Below, piece after piece: positions 2,812-13,660 of a stretch of 20,045 bases of DNA. The stretch spans positions 1 through 20,045 of IMG/VR virus record IMGVR_UViG_3300020735_000076; one strand, written 5' to 3'. Position 1 is the first letter of the stretch. Each line of letters begins with the position of its first letter. The notes beneath the pieces were generated by a model, which was not told where the DNA came from, ran no database searches, and saw nothing but the letters and a program-made list of their open reading frames with translations. The stretch is from a virus. A program made the position numbers and the translations under genes.

Positions 2812-3221
2812 AAGGCTGGAGTGAAGCAGATATTGAAAAATTGAAACAAAAAGGCATGGTTGCGCAACATATTGCACCAAAACTGTTACAAAAAGTACAG
2901 AAAGCGTGCAAAAAAGAACCTGCAGCATTGATCCACATCAAAGAAGTATTGTGGCTTTTGAAAGTGCCTTATGAAACAGAATACATTTTCCATCCTGCCC
3001 GGAAATGGCGGTTCGACGTGGCGATATCGGAACATAAAGTTGCAATTGAATATGAGGGTGTGATCAGTTCAGATAAAAGCAGGCATACAACGATAGTCGG
3101 TTTTTCTAATGATTGCAGAAAGTATAACCAGGCTCAATTGTATGGATGGAAAATATTACGATACACAGCTTTAAACTATAAAGAATTCTATTCAGAACTA
3201 AAACAACTTATTGAAATATGA
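2808..3221 (+). CDS. PDDEXK-type (VSR/DUF559-like) endonuclease
   Basis: 137 residues beginning MKGWSEADIEKLKQKGMV. The C-terminal ~85 residues carry the compact phage nuclease signature: HPARKWRFDVAI (catalytic Asp70), KVAIEYEGV (acidic pair Glu81/Glu83), SRHTT, then DCRKYNQAQLYGWKILRYT. The spacing D-x10-E-x-E and the final GWKILRYT strand are typical of the PDDEXK superfamily members found in phage recombination/replication modules, where they may act as Holliday-junction or flap nucleases. The gene starts in an ATGA overlap with the upstream small gene and ends in another ATGA with the next, so all three are translationally coupled. Fold-level call is good; the substrate is unknown. Confidence 0.75.
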   Translation: MKGWSEADIEKLKQKGMVAQHIAPKLLQKVQKACKKEPAALIHIKEVLWLLKVPYETEYIFHPARKWRFDVAISEHKVAIEYEGVISSDKSRHTTIVGFSNDCRKYNQAQLYGWKILRYTALNYKEFYSELKQLIEI

Positions 3222-3610
3222 AAAATCTTGATAACGACAAAATAAGGTTTGTCTGGGATGCTGTTCACAGAAGCAAATTGAATTATAAGCAGATCTGTGT
3301 GTTGTTAAATATCAGACAGGATGAATACAAAAGATTATATGCCGAAGCATTGAAAAAATTTGGTGACACACTTCCAAAAGAAGAGCTGATTAAAATAAAA
3401 GTTGATTTCGAAAAGCTGAAAAACTTTCAACCGAGCCCATCAGCAAAAGTGATCAAATTTCCAAAGGAAAAAAGAAAACTGCAGGTGCCGGTTTATGAAA
3501 AGAAAATAATTCGGTTTTCTGATGATGGTCCGAAACAAATTGTACGACCAAAAGCACAATATTCAAATCACAGTCCTATGGGAATCGCTAATCCGGGAAT
3601 GGGAAATTAA
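3218..3610 (+). CDS. hypothetical protein, 130 aa
   Basis: Begins MKNLDNDKIRFVWDAVHRSK in an ATGA overlap with the nuclease gene. Residues ~5-55 look helical and could form a small helix-turn-helix (LNYKQICVLLNIRQDEYKRLY resembles a first helix, turn and recognition helix). The rest is a basic, proline-containing tail (SPSAKVIKFPKEKRKLQVP) that looks extended and ends in GMGN. The basic tail could contact nucleic acid. I do not recognise a family; a DNA-binding accessory of the replication module is only a guess from position and charge. Confidence 0.6.
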   Translation: MKNLDNDKIRFVWDAVHRSKLNYKQICVLLNIRQDEYKRLYAEALKKFGDTLPKEELIKIKVDFEKLKNFQPSPSAKVIKFPKEKRKLQVPVYEKKIIRFSDDGPKQIVRPKAQYSNHSPMGIANPGMGN

Positions 3611-3618
3611 AAAAAAAC

Positions 3619-3945
3619 ATGAGCTGGATTACCGAAGCAAACAGATTTGGTCGCTATGAGCAGACTTATTGTGGATTCAGAATTTACTGGACCAAAGAAG
3701 CAAGCCATACAACCAGAATTGAAGTAAGAAATGGAGAAAAGTTTGAAGTGACGGATTTACATAGAGGAGATCTTGTTGCAATTGATAAAACCGGAGCAAT
3801 AATAAAAGATCATTGGATTGACAGAATCGGTGAAAAAATTGATATGGAAATGGTGTTGCGATCATATCATAAAAAAAGACAATCGAACTTATCAAAACGA
3901 TTATCCAGAGCAGAAAAAAGAGCACAACAATATCTAAAACGATAA
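3619..3945 (+). CDS. hypothetical basic protein, 108 aa
   Basis: Starts MSWITEANRFGRYEQTYCGF after an A-rich 8-nt gap. The first ~75 residues look like mixed beta strands (TYCGFRIYWTKEASHTTRIE, FEVTDLHRGDLVAI) with an RGD-containing turn. The C-terminal ~35 residues are strongly basic and helical (KKRQSNLSKRLSRAEKRAQQ). The basic helix would suit nucleic-acid binding. No known family is recognised, and there is no signal peptide or membrane segment. The gene ends two bases before the ATG of the following zinc-ribbon-like gene and is in the same transcription unit. Confidence 0.6.
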   Translation: MSWITEANRFGRYEQTYCGFRIYWTKEASHTTRIEVRNGEKFEVTDLHRGDLVAIDKTGAIIKDHWIDRIGEKIDMEMVLRSYHKKRQSNLSKRLSRAEKRAQQYLKR

Positions 3946-10961: not shown

Positions 10962-12431
10962 ATGAGCAGAAGAGAACGCAGATTAAATGATCCTGCAATA
11001 CAAGCAAAAAGAGAACAGCACCAACTTGCCGGTGGTGGTCCTTTGTCAATCCCGGGAATAGGAAATAATGGAAAAGGTAATGGCGGCGGATGGGGCAATG
11101 GTAATAAAAAATCAAAACCTGCAACCGGTACCCAACCAGCAGTGAATCCTTTCATGATTCCAAAAGGTGCAGGCTTGAATGTTATCTCTCAAACATTTCC
11201 TTCTAATTATTTTGTTGAATGGAATTTAAGCACCTGGCGATATGCTTGTGATCAGGCTATCAAACAGGGATATACAATGTCTTATGCAACACTCGTTTCA
11301 TGGGTGTTTGAATCTTCACCGTTTATACAATCTTTATTCCGGGCAATAGAATCTCCGATCGGAAAAATACCATATTTGTTTGTTGATGAAAAAGGAAATG
11401 AGTTAATGGATTGGACCGAAGAATTATGTAATAAAAGCTGGCACAAAGATTTAAGAAAACAAATTGCACTTGCTCATTTCTGGGGATTTTTGGGATTGAA
11501 CTTTGATCCGATTAATGGCAAGGTTTATAAATATCCGATGCAGGACATTGATCCTATCAATCGTTTGTTGAAACAAAACACTTATTCATTTTATGATGGT
11601 GTGAATTTCAGTGAGCATGATAATTTATTGTTTGTTCAGCCATCAACAGCATATGAAGCATTCCTCGGATGGATGCAACCGATATCAAGAATGTTCATCC
11701 AAATGAATCTGAATGATAATAGCTGGATCGCTGCAGGTAGAAGATTAGCGTTTCCATTAATGACTGTTGGATATCCTCAAAACAGCAATGAAAAAGATGC
11801 TGCAGGGAATGATTATAATCCTTTCAAAATTCAGGCAGAAAATGTAGTGGCCACAGCTGATCCGACAAAAGGATTGGTTTATCCTTATACATTGGATCCT
11901 CAGGGAAATATTCAGAAGTCTTTAGAGATTGAATTTGAAAAGACCGGCACTGCAGCAAAAGCACATTCCATTTATCTTGATTTCAATGAAGATAAAAAGA
12001 ATGAGATCCGGGAAATGATCCTGGGCGGAACACTTACAAGCTCCACAGCAAAATCAGGAAGCAGAGCGCTTGGCGATGTGCATGCCGATAAGCTTGAAAC
12101 CATCATTGAAGATATTGCGGAGTTCGTAGAAAATTATTTGAATGACGAGTATCTCAAAAAGATAAAGAAGTTTTATAAAAATCTTCCTGAAGGCGGAAAG
12201 TTTGTTGCTAATAAGGCAAAGCAAATGAGCATGGAAGATATCAAACAACTCTCTGATGTTCTTACTGCCAATGGTAAACGATTGACTGATGAATTCTTTG
12301 AAGCAAATGGATTAGTAAAAGAATTTTTCGAAGATGCTCCAACACCAGCTGCAGGTAAACCAATCGATGACGGTGATTTCGCTGCAGTATTGCCGGAAAG
12401 ATCTTTATTCGGTTCAAAAAAAAAATTCTAA
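10962..12431 (+). CDS. portal protein (DUF935/Mu gp29-like)
   Basis: 489 residues. A Gly/Asn-rich, disordered N-terminus (~1-65) is followed by a portal core: WNLSTWRYACDQAIKQGYTM, SWVFESSPFIQSLFRAIESP, a wing/stem region with AHFWGFLGLNFDPINGKVYK, and WMQPISRMFIQMNLNDNSWI. Downstream, SIYLDFNEDKKNEIREMILG, SRALGDVHADKLETIIEDIA and VENYLNDEYLKKIKKFYKNL follow the DUF935 order of G-S-R-A-L-x-x-V-H near a long stem helix. The portal forms the dodecameric ring through which DNA enters and leaves the capsid. The ATG at 10962 is 8 nt after the previous stop. The gene ends GSKKKF at a run of ten A's; slipping there would join it to the MuF gene. Confidence 0.82.
   Translation: MSRRERRLNDPAIQAKREQHQLAGGGPLSIPGIGNNGKGNGGGWGNGNKKSKPATGTQPAVNPFMIPKGAGLNVISQTFPSNYFVEWNLSTWRYACDQAIKQGYTMSYATLVSWVFESSPFIQSLFRAIESPIGKIPYLFVDEKGNELMDWTEELCNKSWHKDLRKQIALAHFWGFLGLNFDPINGKVYKYPMQDIDPINRLLKQNTYSFYDGVNFSEHDNLLFVQPSTAYEAFLGWMQPISRMFIQMNLNDNSWIAAGRRLAFPLMTVGYPQNSNEKDAAGNDYNPFKIQAENVVATADPTKGLVYPYTLDPQGNIQKSLEIEFEKTGTAAKAHSIYLDFNEDKKNEIREMILGGTLTSSTAKSGSRALGDVHADKLETIIEDIAEFVENYLNDEYLKKIKKFYKNLPEGGKFVANKAKQMSMEDIKQLSDVLTANGKRLTDEFFEANGLVKEFFEDAPTPAAGKPIDDGDFAAVLPERSLFGSKKKF
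12416..12425 (+). other. A10 slippery run at portal/minor-head junction
   Basis: Ten consecutive A's (TTC-A10-TTC) span codons Ser-Lys-Lys-Lys of the portal, six bases before its TAA. The -1 frame over the run is open through to the minor head protein stop at 13660, and that frame offers no ATG, GTG or TTG before GTG 12677. Ribosomal or polymerase slippage on A-runs is well known; here it is inferred from the layout. Confidence 0.5.
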
Positions 12432-13660
12432 TCGGTAGAGAATATGCCTTTCTGAAAGGTGAAAAGAAAACCAAAAAGAAAAAACTGATCGAGGATGATC
12501 TGTCCGAAGATGAAAGAAAATACATCTATCAAAATCCAAAAGGAAAAGTAATCTTCACACCCGTTTATAAACAATATAATAAATATTTCTTCAAGGATAT
12601 TGTTGACAATACAAAAATCAAAACTTCATTCGAAGCTTTCCGGGACACATCTATTTTTGAGCGCTATATTTTAAACGTGTTTCAATTCAGTGCGGCAAAG
12701 TCAGCTGCAGAAGCCAAGACACTTCAATCATTGGTATATGATGAAGATAAAAAAATAAAATCACCTTCGAAGTTTAATAAAGAAGCAAAAGAAGTAACTG
12801 ATATTTTTCAGGAAACCTGGTTAAGAGTTGAAAGAGATATCTGTGTACGATCCAGCGTGCAAGGTGAACGATTCAGAAGTATGATGGAAGATTCTGATCT
12901 TTATCCATATTGGATTTATAAAGGTGTGATGGATGATCGTGAACGTGAAGAGCATGTAGAATTGGAAGGACAGATTTTTAAAATAGGAGATCCTGCAGGT
13001 GATGCATGCTTTCCTCCGGATGATTGGAACTGCAGATGCAGCGGTGATGAACTCGATGATGATGAACTCGCCAATAGAAAAGTAAACACGAATTCAGAAG
13101 CAAAACAATTGCTCGATGAACATGTTGATGAACAGTTCCGTTATAATCCTGCAGAGCAAGGAATGTTCCCGAATGATAAGCATAGTTATTTTGAAGTGTT
13201 GGGAAATGCGAATAAAGCAAATGCAGAATTATTTGATGAAGGTGATATCGAAAGCGATGAATCCTTAACAGGCCTTGGAGCGATCATAAAAGCGGCAACC
13301 GGTTTGCATTATTTTATTGAGACAGTGAATGAATGGAAAGAGAAATATGAAACCAATAAATCAGGTGATGTTATTTTCCAGAACAAACAAACTTTAACGA
13401 ATATTCGATTTACGGCCAACTCACTTCATGAGGTGCAAAAGCATAGCAGAGGCTTTGAAAATATTCCTAAAACTGTTCAACGTCCTGACGAGATCTGGAT
13501 GAGCTGGAAGGATGCAGAAAATCAAAAAGTAGTTTTGAGAAATTATATTAAATTTGGAAAGACTTGTTACATCGTACAAACGCAGGATGGAGTTATTGTT
13601 GATGCGTTCGCCATTAGTAAGAAAGCCGCAAATAAATATCGCAAAGGAGTAATTAGTTAG
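12425..13660 (+). CDS. MuF-like minor head protein with PBECR-type nuclease C-terminus; atypical start
   Basis: Frame open from the A10 run to 13660, ~411 residues; the start is uncertain. A GTG at 12677 is the first conventional start, but it would remove ~84 codons that look coding (EYAFLKGEKK, then YKQYNKYFFKDIVDNTKIKT, the usual MuF approach to VFQFSAAKSAAEA). Expression may therefore come from -1 slippage out of the portal or from a rare start codon near 12425. The MuF core has FQETWLRVERDICVRSSVQG, MDDREREEHVELEGQIF (170-186, His177) and CFPPDDWNCRC (195-205), as in Mu gpF. Residues ~285-411 (NIRFTANSLHEVQKHSRGF, VQRPDEIWMSWKD, YIVQTQDGVIVDAFAIS) match the small phage Barnase/EndoU/RelE-like (PBECR) nuclease folds often attached to MuF. 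It may be a toxin/effector carried in the head. The next gene starts 3 nt after its stop. Confidence 0.78.
   Translation: MLIGREYAFLKGEKKTKKKKLIEDDLSEDERKYIYQNPKGKVIFTPVYKQYNKYFFKDIVDNTKIKTSFEAFRDTSIFERYILNVFQFSAAKSAAEAKTLQSLVYDEDKKIKSPSKFNKEAKEVTDIFQETWLRVERDICVRSSVQGERFRSMMEDSDLYPYWIYKGVMDDREREEHVELEGQIFKIGDPAGDACFPPDDWNCRCSGDELDDDELANRKVNTNSEAKQLLDEHVDEQFRYNPAEQGMFPNDKHSYFEVLGNANKANAELFDEGDIESDESLTGLGAIIKAATGLHYFIETVNEWKEKYETNKSGDVIFQNKQTLTNIRFTANSLHEVQKHSRGFENIPKTVQRPDEIWMSWKDAENQKVVLRNYIKFGKTCYIVQTQDGVIVDAFAISKKAANKYRKGVIS

Follow-up and report, generated by a model that had tools for sequence, protein, structure and literature searches.

How does a phage make a head protein whose reading frame offers no start codon in its first 84 codons? 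The question is raised by the junction between the portal gene and the gene of the minor head protein MuF in the IMG/VR virus record IMGVR_UViG_3300020735_000076, of which positions 1 to 20,045 were analysed (20,045 bases, here called the window). Close to its end the portal frame runs into ten consecutive A's (A10) and reads TCA AAA AAA AAA TTC TAA, with the portal stop six bases past the run, while MuF is encoded in the -1 frame relative to the portal. A sequence-only reading of the window had described this arrangement, together with a -1 frame that is open from the run to position 13660 and has no ATG, GTG or TTG before position 12677, 84 codons past the run. All of this is exact in the sequence; the -1 frame is already open from 12377 and extends to 13657, followed by its stop codon. 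We propose that a programmed slip at the A-run probably makes a minority of portal-MuF fusions of ~899 amino acids (aa) and in this way sets a low copy number of MuF.

The identity of the two genes is clear from profile searches. The portal matches PF06074 Portal_Mu (E 6.6e-21; 75.4 bits against a curated cut-off of 23.9), and an alignment of related portals (A3) matched portal proteins in the PDB, the best being 8rka (E 2.8e-6). The gene directly downstream scores 49.7 bits for the MuF domain PF04233 against a cut-off of 29.6.

Conservation of the junction among relatives

Loci for comparison were picked by protein similarity, blind to the run, from scans of viral contigs with MuF, the portal and the portal of the cultured Winogradskyella phage Peternella_1; named phage records (L044-L048) were opened by hand and added. 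Merging identical junctions gave 44 distinct ones, 43 of them with both genes: in H21 (L044) the portal is present and neither a MuF match nor a run was found. L023 and L064 end before the junction and were not counted. The run singled out in the sequence-only reading recurs in these relatives. An uninterrupted run of nine to twelve A's stands shortly before the portal stop in 38 of the 43 junctions (A9 in 5, A10 in 29, A11 in 3 and A12 in 1), and MuF lies in the -1 frame in 37 of the 38. The remaining one, L025 (4538-4559), also seen in L026, keeps an A10 with MuF in the +1 frame, which could be an opposite slip or a shared consensus error. The run is present in 30 of 33 junctions of the window portal clade, in 7 of 7 of the Peternella clade, whose portal is 19% identical to the window portal, and in one of three others (fF4 has it; FPSV-S1 and a Porphyromonas phage do not).

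Runs of this length are concentrated at the junction. In 40 loci with 314,847 bases (the 44 junctions less L044, L045, L047 and L048), 33 runs of at least ten A's were at the junction and one was elsewhere; for at least nine A's the counts were 37 and 7. Counted by exact length, the numbers at the junction and elsewhere were 4 and 6 for A9, 0 and 40 for A8, and 1 and 160 for A7; the sole A7 at a junction comes from Peternella_1, which has it in addition to its A10. On both strands of Peternella_1 and of the records G001-G003 (36-40 kb), A10 occurs once per record, at the junction. The window likewise has no second A10. Its one other A9, at 3609-3617, begins in the stop codon of an open reading frame (ORF) at 3218-3610 and ends just before an ATG at 3619.

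The startless part of the MuF frame is under purifying selection. Over the codons that follow the run and precede the first canonical start (23 to 80 per pair), the ratio of nonsynonymous to synonymous substitution (Ka/Ks) was 0.04-0.30 in 13 of 15 chosen pairs; of the other two, one showed saturation of synonymous changes and the second was too short. For the window and L049 it was 0.20 over 80 codons. Across the 38 run junctions, the first canonical start lies at a median of 56.5 codons past the run, and at least 20 codons past it in 34. A structure predicted for the window MuF from a 27-row alignment has a mean predicted local distance difference test (pLDDT) score of 90.6 and a predicted template-modelling score of 0.89. 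The block from residue 21 (pLDDT 93-97) contains predicted helices at residues 24-36, 45-62, 65-70 and 76-102, and the disordered residues 1-16 are likely the portal-to-MuF linker of the fusion. Neither a search of PDB structures with this model (E <= 0.001) nor a search of PDB sequences with the MuF profile (E <= 0.1) gave a match. The GTG at 12677 is residue 85; a start there would delete three helices and cut the fourth, and it is unlikely to be the true MuF start because it falls inside the predicted helix 76-102. Selection, the confident fold and the homologues, which are conserved back to the A-run with none beginning at that GTG, agree with the earlier suggestion that the first ~84 codons are genuine MuF sequence. 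The annotated MuF start of Peternella_1 (MT732475; L046:2740-2866) omits ~40 conserved -1 frame codons after the A10, and the annotated MuF gene of a Segatella hominis plasmid record (L101), which starts 137 bases past the portal gene (L101:3862), shows the same kind of problem; both annotated N-termini are probably truncated.

The five junctions without a run solve the start problem in other ways. Four have an ATG for MuF (L055, L041, L036 and L047) and the fifth, that of the Porphyromonas phage (L045), is a single portal-MuF ORF of 853 aa. In L055 and L041 the ATG lies within the end of the portal gene, 10-11 bases ahead of the portal stop, which is about where the fused segment begins in run-bearing loci; in FPSV-S1 (L047) it is 7 bases past the first base of the portal stop. 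In the run-less clade of L036 this distance is about 346 bases (L036:5285-5631). One in-frame portal-MuF ORF without a run was also found in a gut phage (L077) whose portal is 44% identical to that of Peternella, while pippi8-1 (L081) and jmh47_hp (L082) have separate portal and MuF genes with ordinary starts. PHROG 35074 and PHROG 220 match both proteins, with the portal part preceding the MuF part. Some relatives thus make the fused portal-MuF chain from a normal gene. Run and start codon tend to be alternatives, although fF4 (L048; A9 with a GTG 8 codons on), L005, L022 and L024 have both. In a tree of the 33 window-clade portals the three run-less members fall in two places, which would fit a run that was lost twice; the branches are long and this history is unsure. 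Taken together, the run with the -1 phase in 37 of 43 junctions, the purifying selection, and the ATG or in-frame fusion of run-less relatives support a slippage-made fusion (Table 1).

Table 1. Features of the portal/MuF junction (window positions, unless a locus is given)
Feature	Position	Strand	Remarks
Mu-type portal gene	10962..12431	+	489 aa; C-terminus GSKKKF, then stop
A10 slippage site (putative)	12416..12425	+	exactly ten A's; A9-A12 at the same place in 38/43 distinct junctions
Portal stop TAA	12429..12431	+	terminates unslipped products
MuF -1 frame, first 16 codons	12425..12472	+	predicted disordered (pLDDT < 50, residues 1-16)
MuF N-terminal helical part	12473..12676	+	-1 frame; no ATG/GTG/TTG; conserved (predicted fold and Ka/Ks)
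First canonical MuF-frame start, GTG	12677..12679	+	84 codons past the run; within predicted helix 76-102
Phage_Mu_F domain PF04233	12770..13042	+	E 7.3e-13; residues 116-206 of the -1 frame product
PBECR2 domain PF18810, nuclease-like, at the C-terminus (toxin-like tip)	13340..13654	+	E 1.8e-10; residues 306-410
Stop codon of the putative fusion product	13658..13660	+	fusion ~899 aa (about 488 + 411)
TTTTTTC and stem-loop at the portal/MuF junction	L078:2102-2139; L079:3707-3744; L101:3710-3747		

Possible routes to MuF and the proposed slipping machine

In the proposed mechanism, RNA polymerase would copy the run correctly into most transcripts, from which the 489-aa portal is translated, but would add one A (or lose two) within the run of a minority of them, and translation of these would continue past the portal stop into the MuF frame to yield the ~899-aa portal-MuF(-PBECR2) fusion. 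Portal rings may then be built from fusions and normal subunits together, leaving a few covalently anchored MuF per head, and this covalent tether would replace the separate portal-binding MuF of SPP1. Slippage to a fusion, as the sequence-only reading had suggested, is supported by run, phase and selection; the low MuF copy number that it attached to the fusion we still only infer.

Several observations weigh against this proposal. The junctions share descent, and the run counts are thus non-independent. The named outgroup records were hand-picked (n = 12; L044-L048, L077-L082 and L101) from phage and plasmid collections with far more matches (for example 207 records in one scan), and the outgroup counts are not a survey. 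A local deletion or an error in the consensus could account for the phase of L025, though it is the same on two contigs. When single sequences of the 38 run loci were folded, 60 nucleotides (nt) downstream and 45 nt upstream of the run, the downstream segment of the window had a z-score of -2.48 and that of L074 was strong at -4.69. A canonical start within 20 codons of the run is found in L005 (TTG, codon 3), L022 (codon 7), L048 (GTG, codon 8) and L024 (codon 12), and separate MuF could therefore be made there; at least one near-cognate codon (ATT, ATC, ATA or CTG) occurs within the first 12 codons in 31 of the 38 run loci. Finally, ribosomes of Escherichia coli slide on at least three AAA codons, robustly at A11 (PMC4363877), and for that reason run length alone is no proof of polymerase slippage.

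The last point bears on the strongest competing route, in which the ribosome makes the same fusion from a faithful mRNA by a -1 slip or by sliding on the poly(A); we consider it unlikely. A ribosomal -1 slip needs seven bases only, an X XXY YYZ heptamer, and an in-frame A AAA AAA is present in every run of nine or more A's; it is inevitable in any such run, and its presence is uninformative. Seven bases would suffice for the ribosome, yet none of the 38 loci has a slip run of fewer than nine A's, and A7 and A8 make up 200 of the 207 runs of at least seven A's elsewhere. In a large share of bacterial genomes, it is also at a length of nine that selection against A-runs is evident (PMC1088944). 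No conserved RNA structure was found in the folded segments of the 38 loci: the mean z-score was -0.54 downstream and -0.42 upstream, and values below -2 were obtained in 5/38 and 4/38, respectively. Two marks of transcriptional slippage are seen at the junction, the run of at least nine A's and conserved coding in a frame shifted by one base (37/38). In tssM1 of Citrobacter rodentium, an A11 before the stop gives ~20-25% transcriptional slippage and both products are needed (PMC4256274). The phase of the run relative to the portal frame varies (26:6:6) and does not discriminate between polymerase and ribosome. Since the run is never A7 or A8, conserved RNA structure is lacking and L025 would require the opposite shift (+1), the comparison favours RNA polymerase as the slipping machine.

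A sister clade of gut phages has what looks like a classical ribosomal -1 signal at the same gene junction, which is at once a point for the ribosomal route and, by its stem-loop, a point against it at the A-run. The portals of L079 and L080 are 55-57% identical to that of L078, and the junctions have no A-run; three records of this clade contain no A10. The portal ends in TTTTTTC followed by GAC, GAT or GCT and the stop, with MuF in the -1 frame. This site is found in 20 of 21 gut loci (L092 ends before it) and in L101; the site of L100 was found separately. MuF begins with FFRL and goes on with GLH in 14 of 20 junctions, the others having an insert (L085, L089, L090) or a different sequence (L096-L098). 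Six bases past the heptamer is a 7-bp stem in which 96.7% of the cells pair (13 sequences chosen from 22). Its covariation is 0.370 versus 0.105 in shuffled alignments, with 13 cells changed on both sides and none of 500 shuffles as high; three pairs had changes on both sides and five further pair types were seen, neither number exceeding that in shuffles (111/500 and 285/500 as high). A separate prediction gave the same helix, one pair longer. Thus the gut clade likely reaches the same fusion by a ribosomal -1 frameshift at UUUUUUC with a stem-loop, and because heptamer and stem are plainly conserved there, the contrast with the A-run clade is informative. Two variants were seen within the gut clade. 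The inserts of L085, L089 and L090 (near 3755-3860) follow the TTTTTTC, and in their translated sequence the FRL...DEY.G motif of the MuF start recurs; the usual stem is lost. In L100 (3347-3777) TTTTTTC and stem look normal, but the portal frame stops early, ~430 bases upstream of this site, which may reflect a broken gene or a sequence error.

That MuF is instead a separate protein, started by re-initiation beside the portal stop at a rare codon such as ATT 12425, was the alternative offered in the sequence-only reading, and it now appears improbable. The near-cognate codons past the run in 31 loci and the TTG, GTG or ATG within 12 codons in L005, L048, L022 and L024 would permit such a start. 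On the other hand, the remaining 7 of the 38 loci have no near-cognate codon in that span, and in all seven loci of the Peternella clade the nearest is at codon 6 or later. A rare start would also leave the A-run, its length and its phase unexplained, and the run-less junctions carry an ordinary ATG in four of five cases and a fusion in the fifth.

Phase variation, in which the length of the run changes in the DNA so that phages in a population switch between split and fused genes, is less probable still, although it could coexist with slippage. A very high mutation rate is to be expected in long A tracts (PMC1088944), and the altered phase of L025 and L026 would fit. However, run length was concordant in 11 of 11 junctions that occur on at least two contigs or records (one of them, L046/L069, is probably one phage deposited twice), and in a switched phage every portal subunit would have to be the fused one. 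Homopolymers are error-prone and single fused genes do exist (L045, L077), but a sequencing or assembly error hiding a true A11 and one continuous gene, as in Porphyromonas phages, is scarcely credible: the window junction has A10 on each of four contigs (the window included), the A10 is not an isolated assembly error because the repeated junctions agree, and portal and MuF are out of frame in 38/38 run loci, the deposited Peternella_1 genome included.

The proposed tether of the minor head protein in known context

The dose of MuF is of interest because of what the protein carries. PF04233 was found at E <= 0.01 in all 27 MuF rows of an alignment (A6) of 27 of the 30 window-clade run loci (L017, L018 and L033 left out), and PBECR2 at the same threshold in 13 of the 27. 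The MuF of L071 matches CdiA_C (39.5 bits against a cut-off of 26.6). The C-termini are toxin-like and variable, and a low MuF dose would therefore be sensible; MuF toxins are thought to travel in the phage head (PMC6316719). The MuF proteins of L029 (4996-7626), L049 (2736-4655) and L056 (3763-5667) also match the Hint/intein-splicing profiles PF14890/PF13403, at or soon after the MuF domain and above the cut-off only in L056 (39.4 versus 35.8 bits); these segments are possibly inteins or pretoxin-type processing domains. A portal ring normally has twelve subunits. At an efficiency like that of tssM1, two to three MuF copies per ring would be expected, and about one at a lower efficiency.

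The junction resembles several known systems and differs from each. As in tssM1 (PMC4256274), an A-run stands a few bases before a stop, a long and a short product would be made whose ratio would matter, and no RNA signals were found near the site; there the case is one secretion gene in two species, whereas here two virion genes would be joined, in a conserved manner, across a phage group. As in the frameshift of tail assembly chaperones (lambda G/GT; SPP1 17.5/17.5*), a programmed shift would occur close to the 3' end of a gene for phage assembly. Those shifts are ribosomal, concern a tail protein and have no run of nine or more A's, unlike the portal/minor head protein junction, but in SPP1 gene 17.5 the putative slip occurs at UUUUUUC, the heptamer of the gut sister clade (PMC6316719). 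As with SPP1 gp6/gp7 and the MuF polymorphic toxins, MuF lies directly downstream of the portal and has toxin-like C-termini; SPP1 gp7 is present at 1-2 copies per capsid (PMC5576092). It is a separate, portal-binding protein, unlike the covalent, slippage-made link considered here. The 853-aa 'portal' of Porphyromonas phage013a_WW2885 and PHROG 35074 have both domains in one chain, but an in-frame fusion, unlike a slippage junction, would put MuF on all portal subunits.

The elements are known one by one: programmed slippage, frameshifts in phages, MuF toxins and genes in which portal and MuF are fused. Their combination at a conserved portal/MuF junction, reached by apparently two mechanisms, was not found in the papers searched. 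No earlier report of a portal-MuF frameshift was found by title and start of abstract in a literature that did not include bioRxiv preprints and most subscription journals. The word 'portal' is absent from the available text of PMC3711429 and of PMC5009743, and the available main text of the Peternella_1 paper (PMC8776804) contains neither 'mass spectrometry' nor 'frameshift'. Two scans of bacterial genome contigs found no relative, and the hosts are therefore known solely from named records.

To our knowledge, there is no generally settled account of how phages whose head is built on a symmetric portal come to have just one or two minor head proteins (and MuF toxins) per head. If true, a recoding site by which a minority of portal subunits acquire the minor protein would be a direct answer to this problem. 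We lean towards the view that an error of the polymerase serves as a counting device of the virion, which would set the number of tethered, toxin-tipped MuF per portal through mixed rings; relatives would reach the same product by UUUUUUC with a stem-loop or by gene fusion, and a covalent link together with a low dose in the frameshifting clades may be what is selected. The conserved A10 can also aid the finding of such MuF genes. The observation reaches far beyond the window, as the same junction design is found in many related phages.

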